Assembly: GCF_013116745.1 (NCBI RefSeq)
Contig: NZ_JABFOE010000009.1
Span: 124,001 to 188,000, forward strand
DNA length: 64,000 bases
Direction: 5' to 3'
Origin: Arthrobacter sp. 260
Lineage (GTDB): Bacteria; Actinomycetota; Actinomycetes; Actinomycetales; Micrococcaceae
Made by a program: the position numbers and the translations under genes. This document shows, in pieces, positions 23,762 to 56,977 of the stretch; positions within the stretch are counted from its first letter, which is position 1, and the number at the start of each line of letters is the position of its first letter. The notes under the pieces were generated by a model. That model was not told where the DNA came from. It did no database searches and saw nothing but the letters and a program-made list of their open reading frames with translations.

Positions 23762-23811
23762 CGATTCCAGCGGTTCGAAACCGGTCCCGGGATTCCTGTA
23801 GACTATTTCCC

Positions 23812-23903
23812 GGCCCCTCATGTGGTGTCACCCTGTGAACTCCCCCAGGACCGGAAGGTAGCAAGGGTAAGCGGGCTCTGGCAGGTGCATGGGGGGTCTT
23901 CTC
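23812..23903 (+). ncRNA. ffs: Signal recognition particle RNA, small 4.5S type
   Basis: The apical SRP Alu-less hairpin is recognisable: GACCGGAAGGTAGCAAGG holds the conserved GGAA tetraloop region and the asymmetric internal loop bound by Ffh, flanked by CTCCCCCA...and the return strand GGCAGGTGCATGGGGGG. The outer stem pairs GGCCCCTCATG with CATGGGGGGTC. It targets ribosomes making membrane and secreted proteins. The end is close to a TCTTCTC pyrimidine tract that may act in termination. Confidence 0.9.
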
Positions 23904-23928
23904 ATTCCCTGACGCAGCAGGAGCACCG

Positions 23929-40586: not shown

Positions 40587-41003
40587 TTAGAGCCCCAGCC
40601 CCGGCGCCTCGATGGCCGGGCAGGTATTCATGACGACGTCGAGTCCTGCCGCCTTGGCCCGTTCCGCCGCCGCCTCGTCGATGACCCCGAGCTGCAGCCA
40701 CACGGCCTTCGCACCCACCTCGATGGCTTGATCCACCACCGCTCCGACCTTTGACGAGTTCACAAAACAGTCGACGACGTCGATCGCTCCGGGGATGTCT
40801 GCAAGCCGCTGGTACCCCTTGCGGCCATGCACGTCGTCGCCCTTGAGGCTGACCGGGATCACTTCCATTCCGAGGTGGTCAATCAGGAACCGGGAGACGC
40901 CGACCGCTGCCCGCCGGGGGTTGTTGGAGAGCCCCACCACCGCCCACCGGCCGGGCGTAGTGAGGAGTTCGCGGACCACTTGGGGATCGTTGGTGTGGGT
41001 CAC
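40587..41003 (-). CDS. CoA-binding domain protein (YccU-like)
   Basis: A 138-residue Rossmann-type protein: WAVVGLSNNPRRAAVGVSRF, VNSSKVGAVVDQAIEVGAKA, VWLQLGVIDEAAAERAKAAG and the end VVMNTCPAIE. This is the stand-alone CoA-binding family homologous to the N-terminal part of succinyl-CoA synthetase alpha. It overlaps the upstream GlxA-like regulator gene by four bases. A paralogue is encoded at 51026-51529 next to metY. The role is unknown. Confidence 0.85.
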   Translation of the reverse strand: MTHTNDPQVVRELLTTPGRWAVVGLSNNPRRAAVGVSRFLIDHLGMEVIPVSLKGDDVHGRKGYQRLADIPGAIDVVDCFVNSSKVGAVVDQAIEVGAKAVWLQLGVIDEAAAERAKAAGLDVVMNTCPAIEAPGLGL

Positions 41004-42010
41004 GGTGTTTTGCCTTTCGCTGTAATCTGTCGGGCTGAGGTTGAGACGGCTGCCTGAGGGACGCGCTTGCCTCTGAAGGTTCTGCGGTAACCCGCAGGGC
41101 TGATCCCCAGGGCCCGGTGGAAATGGTGGCGCAACAGGACCGACTGCCCGAACCCGGATTTGGTGGCCACGGCGTCAATGCTCAACTCGGTATCCTCCAG
41201 GAGCGCCTGTGCGCGCAATAGCCGTTGGGAATTTACCCAGGCAGCAGGAGTGGCACCCGTTTCGGCCCGGAATCTCCGGGCGAAGGTGCGCTCCGACATG
41301 TGCATTCGGGCGGCGAGCGCGCTCACAGGTAAGTCCTGTTCCAGGTGATCGGCCAGCCAGACCAACAGGTGCTCCATCGTGTCGGACCTGACGGCCGGGA
41401 AGGGCCGCTCGATATACTGCGCCTGTCCACCGTCACGGTGGGGCGGGACCACCATTCCCCGGGCAATCGTATTGGCGGCCTTGCTGCCCAACTCGGTACG
41501 CACCAGGTGCAGACACGCATCCACCCCGGCGGCTGATCCGGCGCTGGTGATGATGTTGCCGTCATGGACGTAGAGCACATCCTCATCGACGATCACGTCC
41601 GGATAGCTCTGGGCGAGTCTTTGGGAGTGCTTCCAGTGGGTCGCTGCACGCCGCCCGTCGAGCAGGCCCGCCTCCGCCAGGAGGAAGGCACCACTGCAGA
41701 CCGACAGGATCCAGGCGCCTCTTTCGTTTGCCTGCCGCAGCGCGCTGATGACGGCCGGCGGAACGGGCGAACCGCCGTCGTACGGACAGACCACCACCAG
41801 ATCCGCTACTTCGACCGGGCCGAGGCCTTCCCCAACCTCCATGGCGAAGCCGAGGCTGGTCGGCACCATTCCAGGGGATTCGGCACAGATTCGAAAGTCA
41901 AAGGGTGGCACGCCGTCAGCGGTGCGGTCTTCGCCGAAGACCTCGCACACCACGCCAAACTCGAAGGGTGTCACCCCTGGAAGGACCACCGCTGCCACGT
42001 TCTTCAGCAT
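41000..42010 (-). CDS. GlxA-like AraC-family transcriptional regulator with DJ-1/PfpI domain
   Basis: A 336-residue regulator. Residues 1-190 are a DJ-1/PfpI (class I amidotransferase-like) sensor domain with VCSGAFLLAEAGLLDGRRAA, including the nucleophile-elbow Cys. Residues about 215-320 form the AraC HTH pair (VSALAARMHMSERTFARRFR, AVATKSGFGQSVLLRHHF). It probably controls the coupled CoA-binding gene or nearby genes; the ligand is unknown. The start at 42010 is supported by MLKNVAAVVLPGVTPFEFGV. Confidence 0.88.
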   Translation of the reverse strand: MLKNVAAVVLPGVTPFEFGVVCEVFGEDRTADGVPPFDFRICAESPGMVPTSLGFAMEVGEGLGPVEVADLVVVCPYDGGSPVPPAVISALRQANERGAWILSVCSGAFLLAEAGLLDGRRAATHWKHSQRLAQSYPDVIVDEDVLYVHDGNIITSAGSAAGVDACLHLVRTELGSKAANTIARGMVVPPHRDGGQAQYIERPFPAVRSDTMEHLLVWLADHLEQDLPVSALAARMHMSERTFARRFRAETGATPAAWVNSQRLLRAQALLEDTELSIDAVATKSGFGQSVLLRHHFHRALGISPAGYRRTFRGKRVPQAAVSTSARQITAKGKTP

Positions 42011-42492: not shown

Positions 42493-42563
42493 CCTGCCAA
42501 TCAGTCGGAATGTTACGTCAACACTTGCGGTGAACCCCTGCACAGGAGTTTAGTGGTGCTTGA

Positions 42564-42692
42564 CCATCCCGAGCGGCCGAGAGACCTGGATCGATGAAGC
42601 CGCAGCAACCCTGGCCATCCGGCTGACCTTTTGCAGAGCAGCAGTGCAGAAGTAATCCGGTGACATTAGGGTGCTACCGCCAGGATCGATGG
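42564..42692 (+). promoter_or_regulatory. SAM riboswitch (SAM-I superfamily) before the sulfonate transporter
   Basis: The aptamer core is recognisable: CGAGCGGCCGAGAGACCTGG, then GATGAAGCCGCAGCAACC and, after a long variable P3-P4 region, AGGGTGCTACCGCCAGG. Outer helix P1 pairs CCATC (42564-42568) with GATGG (42688-42692). The 3' strand of P1 runs into the ggag ribosome site (42691-42694) for the ATG at 42703, so ligand binding probably blocks translation directly. A near copy occurs at 48430-48528. Confidence 0.88.
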
Positions 42693-42702
42693 AGTTAATC
42701 CT

Positions 42703-43515
42703 ATGACCGTTCTGGCAACACCTAAGTCCCGTTCCGCCGTGTCCGCCAAGCAGGCGCTCAACGTGAGGTTCACCGGCCTCGGCCGCAGTTTCGGACCCCC
42801 CGCTGACCGGCGCACCGTCCTCCGGGACATCAACTTCGACGTCGCAGCGGGGGAAGTCCTTGCCATTCTCGGGCCCAGCGGGTGCGGGAAATCCACCCTC
42901 CTGCGGGCCGCAGCAGGCCTGGACGCCCTCAACGCCGGTTCAGTGGTGATCGACGGTACCGAGGTCCGCGGCATTGACGAACGCTGCGCGGTCGCTTTCC
43001 AGGAGCCACGCCTGCTGCCATGGCACACCCTTCAGGCCAATGTGGCGATCGGTCTACCCAAAGCATCGAGCGCCAGCGAGGGCAAGGCCAAAGTCGCCGA
43101 GCTCCTGCAGCTGGTGGAGCTCGACCAGTTCGCCAAGCACCGCCCGCGGGAAGTCTCCGGCGGAATGGCTCAGCGGGCCTCCCTGGCCCGGGCGCTGGCC
43201 CGTAACCCAGGGGTCCTCCTCCTCGACGAACCGTTCGGCGCCCTGGACGCTCTCACCCGGATCAAGATGCAGGACCTCCTGCTCGACATCCATAAGGCCC
43301 AGCCGACCACGGTATTGCTGGTCACCCACGACGTCGATGAGGCGCTGCAACTGGCCGACCGGATTGTCGTCCTGGGTTCCGACGGGGATCAACCCGGTGC
43401 CACTATCACCGAGGTCCTCACGGTACCGGGAGACCGACCCCGCGACCGCAACTCGGCTGACCTCGGCCGAATGCGCAGCTCCCTGCTGGCCTCCCTCGGA
43501 GTGACCGGCCACTAG
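42703..43515 (+). CDS. ssuB: ABC transporter ATP-binding protein, SsuB/TauB-like
   Basis: A 270-residue nucleotide-binding subunit of a nitrate/sulfonate/taurine-type importer. It shows Walker A GPSGCGKSTLLRAAAGLDAL, the Q-loop VAFQEPRLLPWHTLQANVAI typical of SsuB/TauB, the signature VSGGMAQRASLARAL, and Walker B GVLLLDEPFGALDAL. It is the first gene under the upstream SAM riboswitch, so it should be repressed when methionine and SAM are plentiful, fitting sulfur import. A 150-bp gap separates it from the binding protein gene. Confidence 0.9.
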   Translation: MTVLATPKSRSAVSAKQALNVRFTGLGRSFGPPADRRTVLRDINFDVAAGEVLAILGPSGCGKSTLLRAAAGLDALNAGSVVIDGTEVRGIDERCAVAFQEPRLLPWHTLQANVAIGLPKASSASEGKAKVAELLQLVELDQFAKHRPREVSGGMAQRASLARALARNPGVLLLDEPFGALDALTRIKMQDLLLDIHKAQPTTVLLVTHDVDEALQLADRIVVLGSDGDQPGATITEVLTVPGDRPRDRNSADLGRMRSSLLASLGVTGH

Positions 43516-43666
43516 GCCGCGCCTTCCTGGCTTTCCTCTGCGGCCCCCGGCCTCCCGGCGCCGCCGTTTCGCGCACCCCCGGCACCCGTGCCGCACCCAG
43601 AATTACCGATCTGTTTACAGTCCCATCCACCCCGTCCCCCAGGACTTGTCTCACCAAAGGACCACC

Positions 43667-44710
43667 ATGAACCGCCAGCCATCTCACCTCCCCCGCCGCA
43701 GCGCACTGGGCGCAGCCTCCCTCGCCGTCGTCGCCTCCTTCGCCCTGACCGGGTGCATGGCTGGTGAGGACGCCGTCGGAACCGCCGGTCCGGCGGGCGG
43801 CGAGCTGAACATCGACTTCGCCACCTACAATCCTCTGTCGCTGGTCATCAAGGAACAGGGCTGGCTAGAGGATGAGCTGGCGGAGGAGAACGTCACCGTC
43901 AACTGGATCCAGTCCGCCGGGTCCAATAAGGCCAATGAGGCGCTACGTGCCGGGGCGATCGACGTCGGGTCCACCGCCGGATCGGCCGCTCTGCTCGCCC
44001 GCTCCAACGGCTCACCCATCAAGACGATCGACATCTACTCCCAGCCGGAATGGGCCGCCCTGGTCACCAACGCGGATTCGGGTATCGAGGAAATCAGCGA
44101 CCTGCGCGGCAAGTCGATCGCCGCCACCAAGGGAACGGACCCGTACTTCTTCCTGTTGCAGGCGCTCGAGGCTGGCGGGGTCGATCCCTCCGAGGTGACG
44201 GTGCAGAACCTGCAGCACGCCGATGGCCGCGCCGCGCTGGCCAACGGATCGGTCGATGCGTGGTCCGGACTCGACCCGATCATGGCGTCCGCCGAGCAGG
44301 ACGGCGCCACCCTCTTCTTCAGGGACATCGACTTCAACACCTACGGGTTCCTCAACGCCACGGAGGAGTTCCTTGAGGAGTCCCCCGAACTGGCCCAGAC
44401 CGTAGTGAATGCCTACGAGAAAGCCCGCGAATGGGCTATCGAGAACCCCGAAGAGACGGCGGAAATCCTCGCCGAAGTGGCGGGGATCGACGTCGAGATC
44501 GCCAACGCCGTCATCATCGACCGCACCAACCTGAGCGTCGACCCCGCCCCGGGGGACGCACAGCGCGCCGTGCTGGAGAAGATCGGGCCGGTATTCGTCG
44601 AATCCGGTGACGTCTCCAGCCAGGAACAGGTCGATGAAGCGCTGGACACCCTCTTTGATGACTCCCTGGTGCGCAATGCGGACCCCGCGGCGATTGAGGC
44701 CTCCTCATGA
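43667..44710 (+). CDS. ssuA: Sulfonate-type ABC transporter substrate-binding lipoprotein
   Basis: A 347-residue extracytoplasmic binding protein. The signal peptide (PRRSALGAASLAVVASFALT) ends in the lipobox LTGC. Typical SsuA/NMT1-like segments are LSLVIKEQGWLEDELAEENV, ALRAGAIDVGSTAGSAALLA and LRGKSIAATKGTDPYFFLLQ. It should capture aliphatic sulfonates or sulfate esters at the cell surface. The ATG at 43667 follows aaagga. Its end overlaps the permease gene by four bases. Confidence 0.88.
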   Translation: MNRQPSHLPRRSALGAASLAVVASFALTGCMAGEDAVGTAGPAGGELNIDFATYNPLSLVIKEQGWLEDELAEENVTVNWIQSAGSNKANEALRAGAIDVGSTAGSAALLARSNGSPIKTIDIYSQPEWAALVTNADSGIEEISDLRGKSIAATKGTDPYFFLLQALEAGGVDPSEVTVQNLQHADGRAALANGSVDAWSGLDPIMASAEQDGATLFFRDIDFNTYGFLNATEEFLEESPELAQTVVNAYEKAREWAIENPEETAEILAEVAGIDVEIANAVIIDRTNLSVDPAPGDAQRAVLEKIGPVFVESGDVSSQEQVDEALDTLFDDSLVRNADPAAIEASS

Positions 44711-45621
44711 CCCATCAGGGGAACCCGTACGTGACCGGGAACAGTGTTACGGCAGTGAGCAAGGCCGGTTTAGAGGCCTCAGGCTCCACCGTGACAACGG
44801 CAGACGCCACCCAGCCGCCGCCCGAACGGGGTGGGCCGGCACATGGATGGTCCCAGACCGGCCCGCTGCGGCGTGGCTGGGTGCGTCTGCTCCTCGGGCT
44901 GATCCTGCCATCACTGATCATCACCGTCTGGCAGCTGAACTCGGTCACCGGCCTGTTCAGCTCCGTGCAGGTCCCGCCACCCGCGGCGGTCTTCAACGCC
45001 GCCGTGGAACTGATCCAACGTGGTGAATTGTGGACGCACATCGGGATTTCCACACAGCGGGTACTGCTGGGCTTCACCTTCGGTGCGGCCCTGGGACTGG
45101 TGATTGGTTCACTGGTGGGGTTGTCCCGGATCGCCGATGCCCTGTTGGCCCCGACCATCGGGGCGTTGCGTGCCGTCCCGTCGCTGGCCTGGGTGCCCCT
45201 GCTGATCCTGTGGATGAAAATTGGTGAAGATTCGAAGATCACCCTGATCCTCATCGGCGCCTTCTTCCCCGTGTTCACCACCGTCTACATTGCGCTACGC
45301 CACGTGGACCGGAACCTGGTCGAAGCTGGCCGGGCGTTCGGGCTCAGCGGCTTCAAGCTGCTGACCACTGTGCAGCTCCCGGCCGTGATCCCCGCCGTCT
45401 TCTCGGGCCTGCGTCTGGGCCTCGCCCAGGCGTGGCTGTTTCTGGTCGCCGCGGAACTGATTGCCTCTTCCCTGGGGCTCGGCTATCTGCTCAGCGATTC
45501 ACAGAACAATGGACGGGTGGACAGAATCTTCCTGGCCATCATCCTGTTGGCCATCATCGGCAAGACCACCGACGCCCTGCTGGGGATCGCCGAGAAGTGG
45601 GCGGTACGACGATGGGCGTAA
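44707..45621 (+). CDS. ssuC: Sulfonate-type ABC transporter permease
   Basis: A 304-residue inner-membrane subunit with six helices after a variable polar N-terminus of about 60 residues. The cytoplasmic EAA loop reads VEAGRAFGLSGFKLLTTVQL, followed by PAVIPAVFSGLRLGLAQAW, as in SsuC/TauC. It forms the import channel with SsuA and SsuB encoded upstream. The last ten bases overlap the start of acs, indicating cotranslation of transporter and synthetase. Confidence 0.9.
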   Translation: MTHQGNPYVTGNSVTAVSKAGLEASGSTVTTADATQPPPERGGPAHGWSQTGPLRRGWVRLLLGLILPSLIITVWQLNSVTGLFSSVQVPPPAAVFNAAVELIQRGELWTHIGISTQRVLLGFTFGAALGLVIGSLVGLSRIADALLAPTIGALRAVPSLAWVPLLILWMKIGEDSKITLILIGAFFPVFTTVYIALRHVDRNLVEAGRAFGLSGFKLLTTVQLPAVIPAVFSGLRLGLAQAWLFLVAAELIASSLGLGYLLSDSQNNGRVDRIFLAIILLAIIGKTTDALLGIAEKWAVRRWA

Positions 45622-47588
45622 GCCTGCAGGACGCCGACCCGCTCACCGAGGCAGAGCATCTGAACTTCTGGGACCGGCAGGCACGCCGGCTCGACTGGGC
45701 CACCGAATGGTCGACCGTGCACAGCTTCGCTCCGGCCCGCCCGGTTCCCGGGCGTATTGCCGGTGGGAACGATGACGGTGACGACGTCGAACTGACAGTT
45801 CCGGTGATCGAATGGTTTGCTGGTGGCCGCCTGAATGTGGCCCACAACTGTGTGGACCGGCAGGTCAGAGCCGGATTGGGGGCCAAAGTGGCCCTGCACT
45901 TCGAGGGCGAACCCGGCGACCGGCGCACCGTCACCTACGCGGACCTGCAGGACGAGGTGTCGCGGGCCGCCAACGCGTTGCTCGCACTGGGGATAGGCAA
46001 GGGCGACCGGGTGGTGATCTATCTTCCGGTTCTCGTGGAAACTGTGGTGATCACCCTGGCGTGCGCCCGGATCGGGGCGGTCCACTCGCTGGTGTTCGGC
46101 GGCTTTTCGGCCGAGGCGCTCCGGTTCCGGGTCGAGGACACCGGCGCCAAGCTCCTGGTGACCACCGACGGGCAGTACCGTCGCGGGGCTGCTGTACCCG
46201 TGAAGGCCAACGCCGACCAGGCCGTGGCCGGATCAGACACCATCGAACATGTCCTGGTGATCCGCCGCACCGGCGACGACGTCGAGTGGACCGAGGGGCG
46301 CGACGTGTGGTGGCACGACGTGGTCGACTCCGCCTCCCCGGAGCACACCCCTGAGGCGTTCGACGCCGAGACACCCCTGTTCATCATGTACACCTCCGGG
46401 ACCACAGGAAAGCCCAAGGGCCTGGTCCACACGTCCGGCGGCTACCTCACCCAGGCGTCCTGGAGTTTCGAGTACCTGTTCAGCCATCCCGACCCCGAGT
46501 TGCGGGAGCGTGATGTCCACTGGTGCACCGCCGACCTGGCCTGGGTCACCGCCCACACCTATGAGATTTACGGACCACTCTCCAACGGCGCCACCCAGGT
46601 GATCTTCGAGGGCACTCCCAACACTCCACACCCGGGCCGGCACTTCGAGATCATCGAACGTTACGGCGTGACCAGCTACTACACGGCACCCACACTGATC
46701 CGGTCCCTGATGGGCTGGTTCCCGGACGGCGCCCCAGCCAGCTACGACCTGTCCTCGATCCGGTTGCTCGGCACGGTCGGCGAAGCCACCAACCCCGAAG
46801 CGTGGCGCTGGTTCAGGGAACACCTCGGAGCGGGCACCGCACCAGTCGTGGACACCTGGTGGCAGTCCGAGACCGGCGCCACCATCCTCTCCCCGCGTCC
46901 GACCGACGCTTCGTTCAAACCGGGTTGCGCCTCTCGCGCCCTCCCTGGAGTCAGCACCAGGATTGTCGACGACGCCGGCCACCCCGTGCCCGTCGGTGAG
47001 CAGGGCCTGATCGTGGTGGACCGCACCGGCCCGGCGATGGCCCGGACCGTGTGGGGTGACCCGCAGCGCTACCTCGACTCCTACTGGCGGAAGTTCGCTG
47101 CGCAGGGCTGGTTCCTCGCCGGAGACGGCGCGAGGTACGACGACGACGGCGACACCTGGATCCTCGGGCGGGTGGATGACGTGCTCAATGTGTCCGGTCA
47201 CCGGCTGTCGACTATCGAGATTGAATCGGCCCTGGTGGCCCACCCGTGGGTGGTCGAGGCAGGAGTCTGCCCGGTATCCGACCCGCGGACCGGACACGCC
47301 ATCGCCGCGTTCGTGGTCCTGTCCCCCTCGGCGGGCACAAATCCCGCTGCCGGGGAGGACGTGGGCCGGGTGCTGCGGGACCACGTAGCAGCCGTGATCG
47401 GACCGATCGCGAAACCGGCCGCCGTCGTCGTTGTCGATGATGTCCCCAAGACCCGGTCCGGCAAGATCATGCGGCGGCTCCTGACCCAGCTGTTCGAAAA
47501 CACTGCACTCGGTGACACCACGTCGCTGCAGAACGAGGGGTGCGTGCCCGGGATTGCGGCGGTCCTCGCCGCCCGCCCGGACAGGTGA
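45612..47588 (+). CDS. acs: Acetyl-CoA synthetase
   Basis: A 658-residue AMP-forming synthetase that activates acetate to acetyl-CoA. Seen are the P-loop YTSGTTGKPKGLVH, the acyl-AMP motif VVDTWWQSETGATI and the C-terminal PKTRSGKIMRR with the lysine usually regulated by acetylation. The acetyl-pocket Trp in WWQSE supports acetate rather than longer acids. It overlaps the sulfonate permease gene, so it belongs to the SAM-riboswitch operon. This is unusual, and the acetate released by MetY (49.7 kb) is a likely reason. Propionate as substrate is an alternative. Confidence 0.88.
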   Translation: MGVSLQDADPLTEAEHLNFWDRQARRLDWATEWSTVHSFAPARPVPGRIAGGNDDGDDVELTVPVIEWFAGGRLNVAHNCVDRQVRAGLGAKVALHFEGEPGDRRTVTYADLQDEVSRAANALLALGIGKGDRVVIYLPVLVETVVITLACARIGAVHSLVFGGFSAEALRFRVEDTGAKLLVTTDGQYRRGAAVPVKANADQAVAGSDTIEHVLVIRRTGDDVEWTEGRDVWWHDVVDSASPEHTPEAFDAETPLFIMYTSGTTGKPKGLVHTSGGYLTQASWSFEYLFSHPDPELRERDVHWCTADLAWVTAHTYEIYGPLSNGATQVIFEGTPNTPHPGRHFEIIERYGVTSYYTAPTLIRSLMGWFPDGAPASYDLSSIRLLGTVGEATNPEAWRWFREHLGAGTAPVVDTWWQSETGATILSPRPTDASFKPGCASRALPGVSTRIVDDAGHPVPVGEQGLIVVDRTGPAMARTVWGDPQRYLDSYWRKFAAQGWFLAGDGARYDDDGDTWILGRVDDVLNVSGHRLSTIEIESALVAHPWVVEAGVCPVSDPRTGHAIAAFVVLSPSAGTNPAAGEDVGRVLRDHVAAVIGPIAKPAAVVVVDDVPKTRSGKIMRRLLTQLFENTALGDTTSLQNEGCVPGIAAVLAARPDR

Positions 47589-47655
47589 GCAACACATCCC
47601 ACCGGGCGGGTCCAGCGTTTGGCGGTGATACCGCGCCTGTGATCGGGTTAAGACC

Positions 47656-48351
47656 ATGAGCGTTGACCAGGATGAACAGAAGCGGCGCGAGGACCGGCTG
47701 GCAATGACCCGGATCGTGCTCCGGCCCACCGGAACGCCCCTCCCCCTGGCGTTCATGGGGCTGGCAGTGGCGACCATCGGAGTCAGCGCACTCCAGTTGG
47801 GGATCGTCCCGGCCCGGGAGGAACAGATTATTGCGCTGGGGATCCTGGTGCTCACGGTGCCGCTGCAGCTGTTTTCCTCGGTGATCGGCTTCGGTGCACG
47901 CGATCCGATCGCCGGGACGGGCATGGCCATGGTCGCCGGTACCTGGGCGCTGATCGCGGTGGCGATGCTTGTCACCCCGGACGGCGCATCGCTTTCCGCG
48001 CTGGGGGTACTCCTGATTACCGCGGCGCTGGCCATGCTGGCGCCGATCCTGGGCGCGAAGGGCAAACTGGTGGCCGCAGCGGTGCTGGCTGGTTCAGCCC
48101 TCCGGTTCGCCATCACCGGCGTCGCGCACCTGACCGGCTCGGACGGCTGGGAAACCGCCGCCGGAATCTTTGGTTTCGCCCTCGGCGCGTTGGCGATCTA
48201 CGCGGCAATTGGCTTCGAGACGGAGGAGGCCGGCGGGCCGTTCCACCTCCCGCTGCTCCGCCGCGGATCGGGCACCAAACCGCTGGCCGACGACATGGGT
48301 GAGCAGGTCGAAGGGATTGCCCGGGAGGCGGGCGTGCGCCGCCAACTGTGA
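47656..48351 (+). CDS. GPR1/FUN34/YaaH-like membrane protein, possible acetate transporter
   Basis: A 231-residue protein with six hydrophobic helices between about 28 and 190 (PTGTPLPLAFMGLAVATIGV, LTVPLQLFSSVIGFGARDPI, GFALGALAIYAAIGF) and cytoplasmic ends (terminal EAGVRRQL). The helix pattern and TPLPLAFMGLA resemble the GPR1/FUN34/YaaH acetate-succinate channel family as found in actinobacteria, though the classical NPAPLGL motif is altered. It starts 67 bp after acs in the same direction, which fits acetate handling. The family call is moderate. Confidence 0.62.
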   Translation: MSVDQDEQKRREDRLAMTRIVLRPTGTPLPLAFMGLAVATIGVSALQLGIVPAREEQIIALGILVLTVPLQLFSSVIGFGARDPIAGTGMAMVAGTWALIAVAMLVTPDGASLSALGVLLITAALAMLAPILGAKGKLVAAAVLAGSALRFAITGVAHLTGSDGWETAAGIFGFALGALAIYAAIGFETEEAGGPFHLPLLRRGSGTKPLADDMGEQVEGIAREAGVRRQL

Positions 48352-48429
48352 GAGCCGCATTCCGCCAAACGCTGCAACGGAGAGCAACAATGTTGGTCCA
48401 CCGTGATGGTGCTGTCACACTGGTGGAGA

Positions 48430-48528
48430 CCATCCCGAGCGGTTGAGAGATCTGGCTCATTGACACCGCAGCAACCCTGGCCACTGCCTACGGCAGTGAC
48501 ATTAGGGTGCTAATGCCAGGCACGATGG
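48430..48528 (+). promoter_or_regulatory. SAM riboswitch (SAM-I superfamily) before sfnG-metY
   Basis: A second, compact copy: CGAGCGGTTGAGAGATCTGG, ACCGCAGCAACC, a perfect 7-bp hairpin CACTGCC-TAC-GGCAGTG, then AGGGTGCTAATGCCAGG. P1 pairs CCATC (48430-48434) with GATGG (48524-48528). The P1 3' strand overlaps the ribosome site ggagga (48527-48532) of sfnG (ATG 48538), so SAM binding should hide it. The 78 bp before it may hold a promoter and a TCCACC/GGTGGA stem. Confidence 0.9.
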
Positions 48529-48537
48529 AGGACCAAT

Positions 48538-49695
48538 ATGGCTATTGACCTTTCCCAACCCCTGAAGTTTGCGTACTGGGTTCCCAATGTGAGCGGTGGC
48601 CTGGTGGTCTCCACCATTGAGCAGCGCACCAGCTGGGACTTCGAGTACAACAAGAAGCTGGCCCGCATCGCGGAGAACGCCGGCTTCGAGTACGCCCTCT
48701 CGCAGACCCGGTACGCTGCGAGCTACGGGGCAGACAAGCAGCACGAGGCGACGTCGTTCTCGCTGGCCCTGCTCGGTGCGACCGAGAAGCTGAAGGTAAT
48801 CGCCGCTGTCCACCCCGGCATGTGGCAGCCCGGCGTCCTCGCGAAGTTCATCATCACCGCTGACCACATTTCCAATGGCCGGGCGGCCGTGAACATTGTG
48901 TCGGGCTGGTTGAAAAGCGAGTTCACCGGCTTCGGCCTCCCCTGGCTGGAGCACGACGAAAGGTACGTCCGCACCGAGGAGTTCATCAGGATCCTCCGCG
49001 GCCTCTGGACCGAGCAGAACTTTTCCCAGTCCGGAAAGTACTACAACATCACCGATTTCACCCTCAACCCGCCACCGGTTGACGTTCCCGGACGGCCGCA
49101 TCCGGAGGTCTTCTTCGGCGGGAACTCCACTGCCGCGCAGGCCACCGCTGGCCGGGTGGCCGACTGGTACTTTTCCAACGGCAAGGACCTTGAAGGATTC
49201 AAGGAGAACATCGCCGGTGTGCAGGCCTCCGCGGCCGACGCTGGGCGGCACCCACGGTTCGGGCTGAACGGGTTCGTGATTGCCCGCGACACCGAGAAGG
49301 AAGCCCGCGAGACCCTCCGGGAGATTGTGGCCAAGGCGCACAAGCCCGCGGTCGAGGGGTTCCGCGACGCCGTCCAGGAAGCAGGTGCCTCCACCAAGGA
49401 CGGTAAGGGCATGTGGGCGGATTCCTCCTTCGAGGACCTGATCCAGTACAACGACGGTTTCAAAACCCAGCTGATCGGCACCCCCGAGCAGGTTGCCGAG
49501 CGGATCGTCGAGTACAAGAAGATCGGCGTCAACCTCATGCTGACCTGCTACCTCCACTTCCAGGAGGAGGTCGAAGCCTTCGGCAAAGACATCCTCCCCA
49601 TTGTCCGCGAGCTTGAAGCGGACCTCGCCCGTAAAGAGGGCCTGGATTTCATCATCGACGACGTCACTCCCGAGAATATTAAGGCAGGTGTCTAA
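48538..49695 (+). CDS. sfnG: Dimethylsulfone monooxygenase SfnG (FMNH2-dependent, LLM class)
   Basis: A 385-residue flavin-dependent enzyme of the bacterial luciferase-like class. The N-terminus KFAYWVPNVSGGLVVSTIEQ and the blocks NAGFEYALSQTRYAASYG and AAVNIVSGWLKSEFTGFG follow SfnG, which oxidises dimethylsulfone to methanesulfinate so that sulfur can be assimilated. It needs reduced FMN from a separate reductase not seen here. It is the first gene under a SAM riboswitch and its stop overlaps the ATG of metY. An alkanesulfonate monooxygenase role (SsuD, MsuD) is possible. Confidence 0.85.
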   Translation: MAIDLSQPLKFAYWVPNVSGGLVVSTIEQRTSWDFEYNKKLARIAENAGFEYALSQTRYAASYGADKQHEATSFSLALLGATEKLKVIAAVHPGMWQPGVLAKFIITADHISNGRAAVNIVSGWLKSEFTGFGLPWLEHDERYVRTEEFIRILRGLWTEQNFSQSGKYYNITDFTLNPPPVDVPGRPHPEVFFGGNSTAAQATAGRVADWYFSNGKDLEGFKENIAGVQASAADAGRHPRFGLNGFVIARDTEKEARETLREIVAKAHKPAVEGFRDAVQEAGASTKDGKGMWADSSFEDLIQYNDGFKTQLIGTPEQVAERIVEYKKIGVNLMLTCYLHFQEEVEAFGKDILPIVRELEADLARKEGLDFIIDDVTPENIKAGV

Positions 49696-51029
49696 TGGCT
49701 GACCGCAGCTTCGGATTCCGTACCCGTGCCCTCCATGCAGGAGGCACCCCCGACTCGGCCCATGGTGCCCGGGCCGTCCCCATCTACCAGACGACTTCCT
49801 TCGTGTTCAAGGACACGGCCGACGCCGCCAACCTCTTTGCGCTGCAAAAGTACGGCAACATTTACTCCCGGATCGGTAACCCCACGGTCGCCGCCTTCGA
49901 GGAGCGGATCGCGTCCCTGGAGGGAGGCATCGGGGCGGTCGCGACGGCGTCGGGCATGAGCGCTGAATTCATCACCTTCGCCGCCCTGTGCCAGGCGGGC
50001 GACCATATCGTCGCCGCTTCTCAGCTGTACGGGGGCACGGTCACCCAACTCGACGTGACCCTGCGCCGGTTCGGTATCGACACCACCTTCGTCCCCGGCA
50101 CTGATCCCGCCGACTACGCGGCAGCCATCCAGGACAACACGAAAGCGGTCTACGCCGAAGTGATTGCCAACCCGTCGGGCGAAGTGGCCGACATCCAGGG
50201 CCTGGCGAAGATTGCCCACGACGCCGGAGTGCCGCTGATCATCGACTCCACCCTGAGCACTCCCTACCTGATTCGCCCGATCGAACACGGCGCTGACATA
50301 GTGATCCACTCGGCGACGAAGTTCATCGGCGGGCATGGGACCACCCTGGGCGGCGTCATCGTCGAGGCCGGTACCTTCAACTGGGGCAATGGCAGGTTCC
50401 CCACCATGACCGAACCGGTTCCCTCCTACGGGAACATCCAGTGGTGGGCGAACTTCGGGGAGTACGGGTTCCTGACGAAGCTGCGCACGGAGCAGCTCCG
50501 GGACATCGGCCCGTCCCTGTCCCCCATGTCCGCCTTCCAGCTGCTACAGGGCGTGGAGACACTGGCCCAGCGGATGGACGAGCACCTCTCGAACGCGCAG
50601 GCGGTCGCCGAGTGGCTGGAGAACGATCCGCGGGTGGAGTACGTGAACTACGCCGGACTGCCCTCCCACCGCCACTTCGAGCGGGCGGCGAAGTATCTTC
50701 CGCAGGGCCCCGGCTCGGTGTTCAGCTTCGGGGTGAAGGGCGGCAGGACTGCCGGGCAGACCTTCATCGAGTCGCTGCAGCTGGCCTCGCACCTGGCGAA
50801 CGTGGGGGACGCCAGGACACTAGTCATCCACCCGGGGTCGACGACGCATCAGCAGCTTTCCGCCGAGCAGCTGGTCACCGCCGGAATCCCTGAAGACCTG
50901 GTGCGCATCTCGGTGGGGCTGGAGGACCTGGAGGACATCCTGTGGGACCTCGATCAGGCCCTGGACCTTGCCACGGCACCGAAGCTTGAGGACCAGTTGA
51001 ACCCCAATGTTGAGGGAGTGAAGGCGTGA
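49695..51029 (+). CDS. metY: O-acetylhomoserine sulfhydrylase (aminocarboxypropyltransferase)
   Basis: A 444-residue PLP enzyme of the Cys/Met metabolism family, converting O-acetylhomoserine plus sulfide to homocysteine and acetate. The N-terminus [20 protein letters not shown], the [20 protein letters not shown] loop and the PLP lysine in [16 protein letters not shown] are clear; length fits MetY rather than the 390-residue MetB. It is translationally coupled to sfnG upstream and to the CoA-binding gene downstream and is under SAM riboswitch control, so it makes methionine when SAM is low. Confidence 0.95.
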
Positions 51030-51529
51030 GCGCTGACCTGGAAACGGCACGCACCTGGGAGGGCCCGTCCGCCCCTGAGCGGCTCTCGCTGCTGCGCAAC
51101 GCCAAGTCGGTGGCCATCGTCGGGGCGTCGGACAAGCCGTCCCGAGCGTCCTACTTCGTGGCGACCTACCTGCAGTCGTCGTCGCCGTACCGGCTGTACT
51201 TCGTGAACCCGGTGGCGAAAGAGATCTTGGGACAGCCCGTCTACGCGTCATTGGCGGATCTGCCGGAGGTGCCCGACATTGTCGACGTGTTCCGCAAGCA
51301 CGACGACCTGCCGGGTGTCCTTGAGGAAGCGAAGGCTGTCGGAGCGAAGACCCTCTGGTTGCAGCTCGGCTCCTGGCATGAGGGGGTTGCCCGTGACGCC
51401 GAGGAGGCTGGCCTGAACGTCGTGATGGACCGGTGCATCAAGATCGAGCACGCACGGTTCCACGGCGGGCTGAACCTCGCCGGCTTCAACACCGGCGTGA
51501 TCTCCTCGAAGCGCCAGGTCACCGCCTAG
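51026..51529 (+). CDS. CoA-binding domain protein linked to metY
   Basis: A 167-residue Rossmann-type CoA-binding protein (SVAIVGASDKPSRASYFVAT ... VDVFRKHDDLPGVLEEAKAV ... LWLQLGSWHEGVARDAEEAG). It overlaps the end of metY by four bases and has gagggag inside metY as its ribosome site. It is a paralogue of the protein at 40587-41003. Coupling to a homocysteine-forming, acetate-releasing enzyme suggests a role in acyl-CoA or homoserine acetylation control, but that is inference. It ends the operon, followed by a terminator. Confidence 0.85.
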   Translation: MSADLETARTWEGPSAPERLSLLRNAKSVAIVGASDKPSRASYFVATYLQSSSPYRLYFVNPVAKEILGQPVYASLADLPEVPDIVDVFRKHDDLPGVLEEAKAVGAKTLWLQLGSWHEGVARDAEEAGLNVVMDRCIKIEHARFHGGLNLAGFNTGVISSKRQVTA

Positions 51530-51556: not shown

Positions 51557-51624
51557 CAGAAACTGCCCTGAGGCCAAGGCCCGCTGATTGTCAACGGAAA
51601 CCCTTTGCCTCAGGGTAGTTTTTT
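51557..51624 (+). terminator. Rho-independent terminator of the sfnG-metY operon
   Basis: AGAAACTGCCCTGAGGC (51558-51574) pairs with GCCTCAGGGTAGTTTTTT (51607-51624) with one G-T wobble and ends in T6. The loop is about 32 nt. The 107 bp after it carry the peroxidase promoter region and a gggag ribosome site. The arm sequence resembles the hairpin at 60323-60411. Confidence 0.85.
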
Positions 51625-51730
51625 CATGTGTGGCGGGACTTCGCCGATGGCGCCGACGCTGGTTAAAGATATTCCCAAGGTGAAAGAGGGACTCTGTGCC
51701 CAGCTAACACCAGCAAACAGGGAGATCACC

Positions 51731-54700
51731 ATGCGTACTAATCCCATTTTTCGCAAGCGGCAGTTCAGGGCGCAGAGTGATGCCCGCGCTCATCCCACAT
51801 TCAGACGGCGCCTCACTGCCGGAATGATCACTGTTCTCCTGGCGGGTGGTGCATTGCCGGTTGTTGTTGCACCCGCCGCGCAAGCCGCACCGGTCGGTCA
51901 AGGGCTTACGCTCAACGCCGGCGACATGCGCTTCATTCTCAAGCAGATCAAGATTGCGGAAAATCACGCGACCAAGGAGGACGCCCAAGGCAACCCAGTT
52001 CCAGGTCAGCCGTTGCTCGGTTCCGGCCCCAATCAGATCGCCAACGCCCTGCTGCCCTACGGGCTGCGGACAGTGGACGGATCAGAAAACAATCTGGTGG
52101 CAGAGCGCACGGAATTCGGCGCCAGTGGCCTTCCGTTCCCGCGGTTGGCCACGCCACAATGGCGGACCACCGCAGCCGGTCAGACGTACAAGTCGGTGAA
52201 CACCAATGTAACGGACGCCGAACCGAGGTTCATCAGCAACGTCATTGTGGATCAGACGTCCACCAACCCTGCCGCCATCGCTGCGGCCGGCCAGGCACAC
52301 CGGACAGTCAATAACGCCGCTACGGCAGTGCCGTGTGATGCTAACGGTTTGCCGGCCGGTTGCGTGCCCGCCGGCGAAACCCTTGACATTCCCAACGTCA
52401 CCACGGACTTCGGATTGTCACCCCCCTACAACGGAATGTTTGCCTTATTTGGCCAGTTCTTTGATCACGGGGTCGATTTCACCAAGAAGACCAAGAACTA
52501 TGTGATGGTTCCGCTGGCCCAGGATGACCCGCTGATAATGGATGGCTCAGCACGGAATGCACCGTTCATGATCCTGAACCGAGCGGAGAACCAGCCCGGC
52601 CCGGACGGAAGACTTGGCACCGCCGACGACGTCCAGGATGGCACCAACACTGACTCGCCGTGGGTGGATCAGAGCCAGACCTACGGCTCACATTCCTCCC
52701 ACCAGGTCTTCCTGCGGGAATACGAGATGAATGCCGACGGAAAGCCGGTTTCCACCGGCGAGCTGATCGAAGGTGTCCCAGGAGGGATGGCCACCTGGAA
52801 GGACCTCAAAGCACAGGCATCCTCGAAGCTCGGACTGTTGCTCTCCGACGCCGACGTCGCCGACCTTCCGATGCTGGCCACTGACCAGTATGGGCGCTTC
52901 CTCCGGGGACCCAACGGCCTGCCCCAGTTCATCAACCAGGATCTCAGCCTGACTGAAGGAAACCTGGAAACCCCGGTAGCCCCTCCCGCCAATGTGCAGC
53001 GCGTCGGCATCGCGTTCCTCGACGACATCGCCCACAACGGCAATCCCTTCAATTCCCAGACCGGCGCGGCACTTACGGCGGACACGGATACCGACATTGC
53101 GGAACCCACCTCCCGCCAGCCAGCGGGGACCTACGACAACGAAATGCTTGACACCCACTTTGTTGCTGGAGACGGCCGCGTGAACGAGAACATTGGCCTC
53201 ACCGCTATTCACCAGATCTTCCACTCCGAGCACAATAGGCTCACCGGTTACATGAAGGACCTGCTGACGTCCCTGAACCTGGACCTGAATGAGTGGAAGC
53301 TGCCCTCGGGTCAATGGAACGGTGAACGCATCTTCCAGGCGGCCAGGTACGTGACGGAAATGGAATACCAGCACATCGTGTTTGAAGATTTTGCCCGGAA
53401 GATCCAGCCTGGCATCAACCCCTTCAACGTCTTCACGCAGTCCGACACAGGAATCAACCCGGCGATCATGGCCGAGTTTGCCCATGCAACCTACCGTTTC
53501 GGCCACTCAATGTTGACTGACACGGTCGACCGGAAGACCAACACGGGATCCGATCTTGGTCTGCCCCTGCTTGAGGCTTTCCTCAACCCGCCCGCCTACT
53601 ACGAGAGCACCGAAGGGACGCTCACTCCGGAGAAGGCCGCTGGCGTCATTGCCATGGGCATGACCGACCAGGTGGGTGCAGAGCTGGACGAATTTGTCAC
53701 TGACACCCTGCGCAACAACGTTCTGGGTCTGCCACTCGACTTGGCTACCCTCAACATCGCCCGCGGACGGGAAACCGGCATTCCATCGCTGAATAACTTC
53801 CGCAAGGAACTGTACCGGACAACCGGCGAATCCTCCCTGAAACCGTACACCAGCTGGGTGGACTTCGGGCAGGGACTGAAGCACCCAGATTCGGTGGTCA
53901 ACTTCATGGCTGCCTACGGCACGCATGAGACCATCCGAAACGCCACGACGATCGCTGGCAAGCGCGCTGCCGCTCAGCTCCTGTTTGACATGAATCCTGC
54001 CAACACTGACACACCGGCCGACGCGTACGATTTTGTCAACAGCACGGGAGCCGATTGGACGCCTGTCAACGGCAACTCCACGACGGGTGTCGACGGCGTC
54101 GACCTGTGGGTAGGCGGCCTCGCCGAATCACAGAACCTCTTCGGAGGTTTGCTTGGATCGACCTTCAACTACATTTTCGAACGTCAAATGACTGACCTGC
54201 AGGACGGTGACCGGTTGTACTACCTGTCCCGCACTTCGGGCCTGAATCTTCGCACCCAGCTTGAAGGGAACTCACTGGCGGAGTTGATCATGCGCAACAC
54301 CGATGCAAAAGCCCTGAAAGCTGACGTGTTCGGAGTAGCCGACTGCGAGTTCGAACTGGAGAATATTGTGCCGACCACCGGCAACAATGTGGCTGACGAT
54401 CCTACCTCAGCCTGCAACGAGTCAGCGCTGCTCCTGCGGATGGCTGATGGAACCATCCGTTACCGGCTGACTAATACCGTGGACCGCCCAGGGCTCAACG
54501 CCCAGTCCACCTTCAACGGCACACCCGCCCGCGACAGGATCTGGGGCGGTATTGACAATGACACCGTCTGGGGAAACGACGGTGATGACATCGTTGAAGG
54601 CAACGATGGTGCTGACACTGTCCTTGGCGGCGAAGGCAACGACATCATCACTGACTCCCACGGGGACGACGTGCTCAAGGGCGGACCTGGCAACGACGCG

Positions 54701-56977
54701 ATCGACGCCGGCCCGGGCCTGGACATCATCATGTCCGGTGCAGGTGATGACTTTTCCAACGGCGGCCTCAACGGAAACGAAACCTTCGCGGCGGAAGGAA
54801 ATGACCTTATCCTCTCCGGTGACGGACCGGACGCTGTCTTCGGCGGGGGAGGAAATGACTGGATGGAAGGCGGCAACGCCAACGATCTCCTGCAAGGCGA
54901 CAGTGGCGCTCCCTTCTTCGACGATCTCAACGACCCGGGCCACGATGTACTCATTGGGGACAGCGGCGAGGATGACTACGATTCAGAGGGCGGCGACGAT
55001 GTCATGGTCGGCGGCCCGGGTATCGAGCGCAACCACGGCCTCTACGGCTTCGACTGGGTGACCCACGCTCGGTCCGGAGAAGCCGCGGATTCCGACATGC
55101 GCATGGTCATCGTGGAAGGCCCCAACGCTCTTCGGGACCGCTTCCTGCTGGTTGAAGGGCTGTCCGGCTGGGATAAGAACGATGTCCTGCGCGGCAACGA
55201 TGATATCCCTTCTGAACCGGACGAAGAGGTAGCAGTGCCCGGGGCGAGCAACGTTCTCACCGAGGAAGGTATTGGACGGATCAGAGGTCTTGCTGAACTG
55301 CTGCCAGCAAATGCCACCACGTTCGGGGAAGGAAACATCATCATCGGCGGATCGGGGAGTGACCAGATCTGGGGCAATGGCGCAGATGACATCATTGATG
55401 GGGACAGGTGGCTCAATGTGAGGCTCAGTGTCCGTACTGATGTGAATGATCCGGCCACTGAAACCCGGACCGAAAGCACCTTGAAAAATCTCCAGGCGGA
55501 CATCATGGCGGGAACCATCGACCCAGGCAAGGTAGCTATTGTCAGGGAAATCCTTTCCACACCAGAGGCCACGGATGTGGATACCGCCAACTTCTCAGGG
55601 GCGCGTGCCGAGTATGCCATCAGCACTGAGAACGGCGTCACCACGGTGGCCCATACCGGCGGTACCGGCGCAGACGGCACCGACCGCATCACCAATGTTG
55701 AACAATTGCGATTCACTGACGCCACGGTCGACCTGACCGAAACGTCAGCACCCACTGTGACGGGGCGCACCCCGGCGGAGGGAGCCACCACTGCCGCAGT
55801 TGCGGGCAACATCACGGCGACCTTCAGCGAGGCTGTCAGTGGCGTCAACAGCACGTCGGTCACTCTGGCTACAGCCGCTGGCGCCCCAATCCCGGCTGTC
55901 GTGACCTACGACGCCTCCACCAGGACAGCGACGCTGAACCCCAACGCAAACCTGGCCAATGGCACCCAATACCGGGTGAACCTGGCAGGAACTATCAGGG
56001 ATGCAGCGGGGAATGCACTACCGGCAACCACCTGGACCTTCACCACCATCGGGACTGCCCCGACGGTGACCGGACGGACCCCAGGGGTGAACGCTACGAA
56101 CGTGCTGATCAACGGCAATGTCACAGCCACCTTCAGCCAGCCCGTCACCGGAGTGAGTACCACCACGGCTCGGTTGGTTAATCCGACCGGCGCTACGGTG
56201 GCAGCGGTAGTCAGCTACAACGCGACCACCCGCACAGCAACACTGAACCCGAACGCCAACCTGGCAGTGAACACCCGTTACACGGTGCAGCTGACCAACG
56301 GCATCAGGAATCTGCAGGGAACCGCAATCCCAACCACCAGTTGGGCCTTTACCACCGAAGCCGCTCCAGCAATCACCGGACGGGCCCCGGGGGTGAACGC
56401 GACGAACGTGCTGATCAGCTCGAATGTCACGGCCACCTTCAGCAAGCCCGTCAACGGGCTCAGCGCCACTACCGTCCGGTTGGTTAACCCGGCCGGCGCT
56501 ACGGTGGCAGCGGTAGTCAGCTACAACGCGACCACCCGCACAGCAACACTGAACCCGAACGCCAACCTGGCAGTGAACACCCGTTACACGGTGCAGCTGA
56601 CCAACGGCATCAGGGACCTGCAGGGAACCGCAATCCCAACCACCAGTTGGGCTTTCAACACCGAAGCCGCTCCAGCCATCACAGGACGGACCCCAGGAGT
56701 GAACGCGACCGGTGTCAGCAGAACCGGCAATGTGAGCGCCACCTTCAGCAAGCCCGTCACCGGAGTGAGCGCCACCAGCGTCTGGGTGACCAACCCGGCC
56801 GGGGCAACAATGTCAGCGGTGGTCACTTACAACGCCACCACCCGGACTGCCACACTCAACCCAAATGCCACCCTGGCAGCTAACACCAGCTACACGGTTC
56901 GACTCTCCAACGCGATCCGGGATGCTTCGGGGATTCCGTTGCAGGCAACGGCCTGGTCGTTCAGGACTGGAGGGTAA
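51731..56977 (+). CDS. Secreted animal-type haem peroxidase with RTX-like and Ig-like repeats (peroxicin-like)
   Basis: A 1748-residue exported protein. Signal peptide about 1-55, long and basic before the hydrophobic core, ending AQA. Peroxidase domain about 190-830: distal site FGQFFDHGVDF (Gln242, His246), catalytic Arg483 in DGRVNENIGLTAIHQIFHSE followed by HNRL, and proximal His592 in YRFGHSML. Residues about 935-1100 hold RTX-like calcium repeats (GNDGDDIVEGNDGADTVLGG). Four Ig-like (Big_5) repeats of about 102 residues occupy 1345-1748. It should produce oxidants at the cell surface or outside. Start at ATG 51731 with gggag upstream. It is followed by a terminator and faces a regulator cluster. 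Confidence 0.9.
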   Translation: MRTNPIFRKRQFRAQSDARAHPTFRRRLTAGMITVLLAGGALPVVVAPAAQAAPVGQGLTLNAGDMRFILKQIKIAENHATKEDAQGNPVPGQPLLGSGPNQIANALLPYGLRTVDGSENNLVAERTEFGASGLPFPRLATPQWRTTAAGQTYKSVNTNVTDAEPRFISNVIVDQTSTNPAAIAAAGQAHRTVNNAATAVPCDANGLPAGCVPAGETLDIPNVTTDFGLSPPYNGMFALFGQFFDHGVDFTKKTKNYVMVPLAQDDPLIMDGSARNAPFMILNRAENQPGPDGRLGTADDVQDGTNTDSPWVDQSQTYGSHSSHQVFLREYEMNADGKPVSTGELIEGVPGGMATWKDLKAQASSKLGLLLSDADVADLPMLATDQYGRFLRGPNGLPQFINQDLSLTEGNLETPVAPPANVQRVGIAFLDDIAHNGNPFNSQTGAALTADTDTDIAEPTSRQPAGTYDNEMLDTHFVAGDGRVNENIGLTAIHQIFHSEHNRLTGYMKDLLTSLNLDLNEWKLPSGQWNGERIFQAARYVTEMEYQHIVFEDFARKIQPGINPFNVFTQSDTGINPAIMAEFAHATYRFGHSMLTDTVDRKTNTGSDLGLPLLEAFLNPPAYYESTEGTLTPEKAAGVIAMGMTDQVGAELDEFVTDTLRNNVLGLPLDLATLNIARGRETGIPSLNNFRKELYRTTGESSLKPYTSWVDFGQGLKHPDSVVNFMAAYGTHETIRNATTIAGKRAAAQLLFDMNPANTDTPADAYDFVNSTGADWTPVNGNSTTGVDGVDLWVGGLAESQNLFGGLLGSTFNYIFERQMTDLQDGDRLYYLSRTSGLNLRTQLEGNSLAELIMRNTDAKALKADVFGVADCEFELENIVPTTGNNVADDPTSACNESALLLRMADGTIRYRLTNTVDRPGLNAQSTFNGTPARDRIWGGIDNDTVWGNDGDDIVEGNDGADTVLGGEGNDIITDSHGDDVLKGGPGNDAIDAGPGLDIIMSGAGDDFSNGGLNGNETFAAEGNDLILSGDGPDAVFGGGGNDWMEGGNANDLLQGDSGAPFFDDLNDPGHDVLIGDSGEDDYDSEGGDDVMVGGPGIERNHGLYGFDWVTHARSGEAADSDMRMVIVEGPNALRDRFLLVEGLSGWDKNDVLRGNDDIPSEPDEEVAVPGASNVLTEEGIGRIRGLAELLPANATTFGEGNIIIGGSGSDQIWGNGADDIIDGDRWLNVRLSVRTDVNDPATETRTESTLKNLQADIMAGTIDPGKVAIVREILSTPEATDVDTANFSGARAEYAISTENGVTTVAHTGGTGADGTDRITNVEQLRFTDATVDLTETSAPTVTGRTPAEGATTAAVAGNITATFSEAVSGVNSTSVTLATAAGAPIPAVVTYDASTRTATLNPNANLANGTQYRVNLAGTIRDAAGNALPATTWTFTTIGTAPTVTGRTPGVNATNVLINGNVTATFSQPVTGVSTTTARLVNPTGATVAAVVSYNATTRTATLNPNANLAVNTRYTVQLTNGIRNLQGTAIPTTSWAFTTEAAPAITGRAPGVNATNVLISSNVTATFSKPVNGLSATTVRLVNPAGATVAAVVSYNATTRTATLNPNANLAVNTRYTVQLTNGIRDLQGTAIPTTSWAFNTEAAPAITGRTPGVNATGVSRTGNVSATFSKPVTGVSATSVWVTNPAGATMSAVVTYNATTRTATLNPNATLAANTSYTVRLSNAIRDASGIPLQATAWSFRTGG
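55763..56977 (+). repeat. Four tandem Ig-like coding repeats, two nearly identical in DNA
   Basis: Units begin at 55763, 56072, 56378 and 56684. Units 2 and 3 are exactly 306 bp apart. Stretches such as 56191-56385 and 56497-56691 are almost identical even at silent positions, which points to recent duplication or gene conversion; units 1 and 4 have diverged. Confidence 0.9.

Follow-up and report, generated by a model that had tools for sequence, protein, structure and literature searches.

In the metX-metY pair of direct sulfhydrylation, MetX uses acetyl-coenzyme A (acetyl-CoA) and MetY releases acetate, which leaves at each sulfhydrylation of O-acetylhomoserine and whose fate is rarely considered. 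Other described systems that come close to the locus presented here are the regulons of S-adenosylmethionine (SAM) riboswitches of class SAM-I (S-box, RF00162), which to our knowledge do not include an acetyl-CoA synthetase, the acetyl-CoA synthetases of the Acs/AcsA type (TIGR02188; PDB chains 2p2m and 1pg3), and the ssu/sfn systems of organosulfur acquisition. Parts of all of them meet in Arthrobacter sp. 260 (Micrococcaceae), in a module that lies on the forward strand of a 64,000-nucleotide stretch, hereafter the window (contig NZ_JABFOE010000009.1, positions 124,001 to 188,000, from a genome of 3.9 Mb), where an acetyl-CoA synthetase gene (acs) stands together with an organosulfur importer, sfnG and metY behind two SAM-I elements. 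This acs belongs to a subfamily that is coupled to MetY and, in the Micrococcaceae, to the SAM regulon. We give about an even chance to the reading that it encodes a dedicated second acetyl-CoA synthetase, which would be coupled to the module-type MetY (MetY1) within an organosulfur and methionine module and would recycle the acetate.

A natural operon linking a SAM riboswitch or metY to an acetyl-CoA synthetase was not found in the titles and abstract openings of the open-access literature. While the enzyme families are known, their arrangement and regulation were thus not found described there, and the closest precedent comes from metabolic engineering: O-acetylhomoserine producers of Corynebacterium glutamicum carry plasmid-borne Acs genes and are fed with acetate (PMC8922893), which is an engineered choice and neither a natural operon nor a MetY cycle. 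In Rhodococcus IGTS8 grown with dibenzothiophene, MetY is reported to be raised by 2.9-3.1 log2 (PMC8557817), and the words acetate and acetyl-CoA are absent from the main text of that paper; the rise offers external support for the idea that MetY matters when sulfur comes in organic form.

The coupling was followed in 61 loci of the acs subfamily, mostly of about 16 kb and some of them ended by contig ends, which had been picked to span genera and families. The controls were 22 loci whose Acs lies outside the subfamily, as assigned by identity or by tree (L095, L158 and L180-L199; 21 from the window's family). Among genes on the same strand and within about 7 kb of acs, metY was present in 47 of the 61 subfamily loci (25/31 in the family and 22/30 outside); 44 loci had a CoA-binding gene, 42 an ssu gene and 16 sfnG, as against none of the four in any of the 22 controls. 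Chance or annotation error as the source of the association is ruled out by the control loci. A separate set of crude gene calls served only to spot recurring neighbours; one of these is a hexapeptide-repeat protein of the acyltransferase type, encoded upstream of ssuB in four loci from families without SAM-I (e.g. L146:2617-3216).

The first-pass annotation of the window had proposed a survey of acs genes next to SAM riboswitches. With R1, a SAM-I model made from 21 elements that include riboswitch 1 of the window, 18 of the 61 loci showed a same-strand element at under 800 bases ahead of acs, and 13 more showed one ahead of an ssuBAC-acs run, as opposed to 0/22 control loci; the choice of the 61 was not blind to riboswitches, as SAM-I was already known near L085, L089-L094, L160, L161, L163 and L165, the last of which was fetched around such an element, and the metY and ssu content of the first batch was unknown when chosen. 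Among the 18, the element of L088 is weak (47.5 bits), and at L091, L149, L161 and L165 the gap of some 540-770 bases between SAM-I and acs leaves space for a small gene. By family, SAM-I precedes acs or ssuBAC-acs in 28/31 loci of the window's family (f1), in 3/3 of family f7 and in 0/27 of the others; in nine of these 27 SAM-I-free loci, no other riboswitch class was found at the Rfam gathering score. The order ssuBAC-acs-metY-CoA-binding occurs without SAM-I in families f6, f8, f11, f13 and f19, in f11 with sfnG before metY, so that the genes stand together in more families than carry the riboswitch.

The metY of the window (49695-51029, +) exceeds the TIGR01326 cut-off (603.8 versus 495.1 bits) and falls in the module-type clade. 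Among 295 family genomes, the subfamily Acs was found in 192 at an expectation value (E) of 1e-240, taken by this value without checking the residues A308/A312 described below individually, and MetY1 in 231 at E 1e-190; both occur in 192 genomes, Acs alone in none, MetY1 alone in 39 and neither in 64. Without correction for descent, Fisher's test gives 7e-38. Within the window's genus, 18 genomes hold both, 4 hold neither and none holds one alone. Where the distance from acs to metY was taken, in 36 genomes, it was below 10 kb in 24 and below 40 kb in 31, and in the remaining 5 the genes were 97 kb apart or on another contig, for some of which contig breaks may account. Linkage by descent alone, with genes joined once and persisting without a functional tie, would draw on the fact that the co-occurrence partly follows phylogeny and that loss of the block removes all the genes together, but it appears very improbable, because the genes differ between loci in order and distance, acs and metY are both retained even in those 5 of 36 genomes where they lie far apart (a separation that contig breaks may explain in some), acs retains SAM-I where metY is not near, and the genus shows neither gene by itself.

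A second MetY clade (49-54% identical) is present in many of the 61 genomes surveyed, and its loci (L227-L246) have metX adjacent in 19/20 cases, with acs in 0/20 and SAM-I in 0/20. At the 61 Acs-subfamily loci metX is never found. The module resembles the described metX-metY pair in the family of its MetY and in the presence of a MetX, and differs from it in the separation of the two genes. The window's genome encodes only the module-type MetY at E 1e-130, and its MetX, located elsewhere, passes the PRK00175 cut-off (451 versus 331) and remains under those of MetX_acetyl_MTB (466 versus 475), TIGR01392 (424 versus 500) and MetX_succinyl (333 versus 560), scores by which it is nearer to the acetyl than to the succinyl type. 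One MetY thus accompanies the maker of its substrate, and the partner of the other is a candidate for reusing the by-product, a contrast that represents the strongest hint at acetate. Taken together, the metY counts (47/61 versus 0/22), the SAM-I elements of the family (28/31), the co-occurrence in 192/192 genomes and the existence of a metX-linked MetY clade without acs indicate that this acs is coupled to MetY and, in the family, to the SAM regulon. The interpretation of the first-pass annotation is therefore supported in part, namely for the tie of acs to metY and, within the family, to the SAM regulon, while the formation of acetyl-CoA from the acetate of MetY is a prediction; among the 61 loci, no SAM-I element was found outside f1 and f7.

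The product of the module acs (45612-47588, +) passes the TIGR02188 equivalog cut-off (772.5 versus 724.95 bits) and aligns over residues 65-646 with the PDB chains of Acs (Salmonella-type; 2p2m, 1pg3 and relatives). In a quick tree of 102 rows it is placed in a clade of 88 (SH-aLRT, an approximate likelihood-ratio support, of 100; stem 1.02), whose members all carry A308/A312 (88/88), as against G308/G312 in the other 14/14, with residues numbered as aligned to PDB chain 2p2m. All 88 also share V310, V386, W414 and the acetylation-motif lysine, and T311 is found in 87/88; the Acs of the window itself has V310, T311, V386 and W414, which we take to be the acetate pocket residues, the three other than T311 presumably restricting the pocket to C2-C3 acids. 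A class-wide search, in which 90 genomes matched, gave only the glycine form in 22/22 further loci (L202-L223, two from the same order), and the alanine form seems to be confined to the order in what was sampled. Acetate is the predicted substrate, from which the enzyme would make acetyl-CoA. Compared with ordinary Acs/AcsA, the module enzyme shares the pocket and the acetylated-lysine motif, and differs in forming its own clade, in its coupling to metY and ssu and in being additional to a housekeeping copy. The first-pass annotation had counted as refuting a second acs that fully supplies the function together with a neighbourhood that is not conserved: a second copy does exist in the genome, 57% identical to the module acs, whereas the neighbourhood is conserved. 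With the protein of this second copy as query, at E 1e-190, the module acs was seen in 32/61 family genomes, of which 30 also have a housekeeping-clade acs, G016 and G038 being without one at that threshold. A single acs clade doing both jobs is ruled out by the tree and by the co-resident housekeeping copy.

The invariant alanines (88/88) and the presence of ssu genes on the same strand in 42/61 loci, including L141, L147, L093, L094, L160 and L162, which have no metY within about 7 kb, would also suit a reading in which this Acs-like enzyme activates another small acid accompanying the imported organosulfur compound, for instance a C2 acid bearing a sulfonate or thio group, or acetate derived from that compound's carbon moiety, and serves the breakdown of the sulfur source and not MetY. 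Thirteen representatives were scanned from 29 recurring neighbour clusters, and those with a sulfur context correspond to luciferase-type monooxygenases and to oxidases of the SfnB kind with an acyl-CoA-dehydrogenase fold, so that organosulfur-type monooxygenases do recur near acs, the remaining ones being apparently unrelated (LysM, DUF1990, nitrilase, sigma factor, SpoIIE and others). We regard this explanation as rather unlikely, since the pocket keeps V310, V386 and W414, taken above to limit it to C2-C3 acids, none of the 13 representatives, within the crude gene calls, is a next-step CoA-thioester enzyme or an aldehyde dehydrogenase, and the 192/192 co-occurrence with MetY1 is not predicted by it.

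The module is arranged in two runs, and all the parts named by the first-pass annotation were recovered. Behind riboswitch 1 (42561-42695, +; cmscan 39.9 bits, E 1.7e-6) follow the ATP-binding subunit of an SsuBAC-type importer (ssuB-like; 42703-43515, +; PF00005), its substrate-binding protein (ssuA-like; 43646-44710, +; TIGR01728), its permease (ssuC-like; 44707-45621, +; PF00528), acs, and a distant relative of SatP/YaaH (47656-48351, +). Behind riboswitch 2 (48427-48531, +; cmscan 50.9 bits, E 9.7e-9) come sfnG, for a dimethylsulfone monooxygenase (48538-49695, +; TIGR04021), metY, and a gene for a CoA-binding protein of the CoA_binding_2 type (51026-51529, +; PF13380; PDB relatives 2duw, 2d59 and 1iuk). 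Consecutive genes overlap by 4 bases (ssuA-ssuC), 10 bases (ssuC-acs), 1 base (sfnG-metY) and 4 bases (metY-CoA-binding), which suggests translational coupling; the overlap of acs with ssuC, already pointed out in the first-pass annotation, is given for the ATG at 45612 as the chosen start codon and for the end of ssuC at 45621.

Regarding the uptake of organic sulfur, ssuA exceeds TIGR01728 (214.9 versus 163.5 bits), ssuC passes no cut-off among its 7 NCBIfam matches, the best of which is SsuC, and ssuB passes none among the matches listed (25 of 185); SsuA is the only importer component over a curated cut-off, that of a subfamily model, among the matches listed, and the substrate of the importer is a prediction. 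The sfnG product is well above TIGR04021 (630.6 versus 382.95 bits). A search of the genome for SsuD gave none over the cut-off, its three matches scoring 164 bits (SfnG itself), 73 bits and 62 bits, the lowest of them in a gene of the NtaA/DmoA type, so growth on methanesulfonate is not assured. The locus is like the described ssu/sfn systems in its SsuBAC-type importer and SfnG, and differs from them in lacking an SsuD over the cut-off in the genome, in the SAM-I elements in front and in the inclusion of acs and metY in the cluster.

The gene after acs had been annotated as YaaH-like, an assignment that is weak. With E values allowed up to 10, the PDB gives only two matches to its product, both of them SatP chains (E 0.0048 and 0.092); it scores 15.4 bits against a PF01184 gathering score of 25, and PF01184 is the best-ranking, though sub-threshold, Pfam match in all three homologues (E 0.011-0.065). 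An AlphaFold model built with three sequences has a mean predicted local distance difference test (pLDDT) score of 45.9, and helices that would fit six transmembrane segments appear only in this poor model. The protein is best described as SatP-like and is not placed in the PF01184 family. A search of 395 family genomes found its gene in 3, the window's own among them, which belong to the same genus and in each case have it after acs; in same-genus relatives, its place between acs and riboswitch 2 is taken by an opposite-strand gene with a LysM domain (L079:9021-10337). The place of a SatP-like gene after acs in those three genomes, together with SAM-I less than 800 bases before acs in loci with no metY close by (L090, L093, L094, L160, L162 and L166), would suit an ordinary acetate scavenger within the sulfur regulon that is not dedicated to the acetate of MetY: a shortage of sulfur amino acids would raise the need for acetyl-CoA in making O-acetylated precursors, and external acetate would enter through the SatP-like permease. 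This is in our view an unlikely explanation, in that the SatP-like gene is restricted to 3/395 genomes whereas MetY1 accompanies Acs in 192/192, and metX is at 0/61 loci.

Both SAM-I elements match the class aptamer and precede sulfur or methionine genes, as in known S-box regulons. Riboswitch 2 is above the RF00162 gathering score (50.9 versus 44.4 bits). Riboswitch 1 is under it (39.9 versus 44.4 bits, E 1.7e-6), its copy in L097 reaches 77.3 bits with R1, a model trained on 21 elements that include it, and it is found at the equivalent position in same-genus genomes; it is treated here as a divergent SAM-I element. The helix P1 of riboswitch 1 is formed by a 5′ strand CCATC (42564-42568) and a 3′ strand GATGG (42688-42692), the latter overlapping the likely Shine-Dalgarno sequence GGAG (42691-42694) of ssuB, 8 bases before the start codon. 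Similarly, the 3′ strand GATGG of P1 in riboswitch 2 (48524-48528) overlaps the likely Shine-Dalgarno sequence GGAGG (48527-48531) of sfnG, 6 bases before the start codon. This overlap and the inclusion of acs set the module apart from S-box regulons as they are known. Binding of SAM stabilises P1 in the SAM-I class, so it should block initiation at both sites, which would point to a translational mode of control by both riboswitches. The ligand-free minimum-energy folds of the two leaders show no P1 and have z values of -0.26 and -1.69, which are not significant, P1 being expected to depend on the ligand. Both leaders of the module carry a P3 arm ending GTGACATTAGGGTGCTA, which is lacking in the remaining 19 aligned elements, so that one leader probably arose from the other by duplication. 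Elsewhere in the genome, a third SAM-I element (contig C139, L096, G000:C139:213500-232500; 61.8 bits) precedes an importer of the peptide type; further on come an NtaA/DmoA-like monooxygenase, which exceeds its cut-off, and a gene grouped by clustering with a sub-threshold relative of SfnB.

A likely scenario for acetate recycling would start with low levels of SAM, under which the riboswitches would leave both ribosome-binding sites accessible. Organic sulfur would come in by way of the importer and SfnG, and MetY1 would join sulfide to the O-acetylhomoserine made by the MetX encoded elsewhere, with release of acetate. Finally, the Acs of the module would reconvert this acetate to acetyl-CoA for MetX, so that acetate would act as a reusable carrier at the net cost of one step from adenosine triphosphate to adenosine monophosphate per homocysteine. 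Gene content, the Acs subfamily, synteny, co-occurrence and the riboswitches with their Shine-Dalgarno overlap are seen in the sequence, whereas what Acs and the importer act on, the direction, the cycle itself and the translational control are predictions; the pocket residues, the type of MetX and the SatP-like gene all fit acetate recycling. A more specific version, in which the Acs subfamily, MetY1 and the CoA-binding protein would constitute an acetate-carrier cycle, possibly in a complex, under SAM riboswitches in the Micrococcaceae, with MetX transferring the activated acetate to homoserine, sulfide displacing it there and a new activation following, is put forward tentatively, as somewhat less probable than an even call.

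Several observations weigh against acetate recycling. There is no metY within about 7 kb in 14 of the 61 loci, of which 6 have SAM-I before acs (L090, L093, L094, L160, L162 and L166), 4 have ssu only (L134, L139, L141 and L147) and 4 lack any part of the module (L133, L154, L155 and L157), with L134 (2.5 kb behind acs) and L157 ending at contig ends. Pairs of ssu and acs without metY in that range thus exist (e.g. L141 and L147). The link to ssu is a hint that Acs may have another substrate, and A308 and A312, which flank pocket residues, might change the substrate. On the side of MetY, 39/231 genomes with MetY1 lack the subfamily Acs at E 1e-240, although in some of them a copy too diverged for this threshold may be present, and the MetY clade linked to metX shows that such an enzyme can work without it (0/20). 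Moreover, the acetate from methionine synthesis is a small flux, the second acs of the genome could serve the same role, and SAM-I is missing from the 27 loci outside f1 and f7.

With regard to the surroundings of the module, a second CoA_binding_2 paralogue, identified by its profile match, lies upstream of it and of riboswitch 1 on the reverse strand (40587-41003, -), and is so placed in 12/61 Acs-subfamily loci. Between this paralogue and riboswitch 1 there is a regulator of the AraC family, FtrA-like (41000-42010, -), which was not found at the corresponding loci of two other genomes of the genus (L075 and L098). Directly after the module, a protein of 1790 residues is encoded (51605-56977, +) with animal haem peroxidase, RTX calcium-binding and Big_5 domains, and the window also contains a bacterial small signal recognition particle RNA (23809-23904, +).

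The MetY of Micrococcaceae splits into two contexts, either with metX or with acs, and the motif AWVTAH offers a mark for recognising an Acs subfamily with a likely role in sulfur metabolism. If the proposed recycling is true, acetyl-CoA synthetase would join the SAM regulon, and these cells would handle the acetate released by MetY on purpose.

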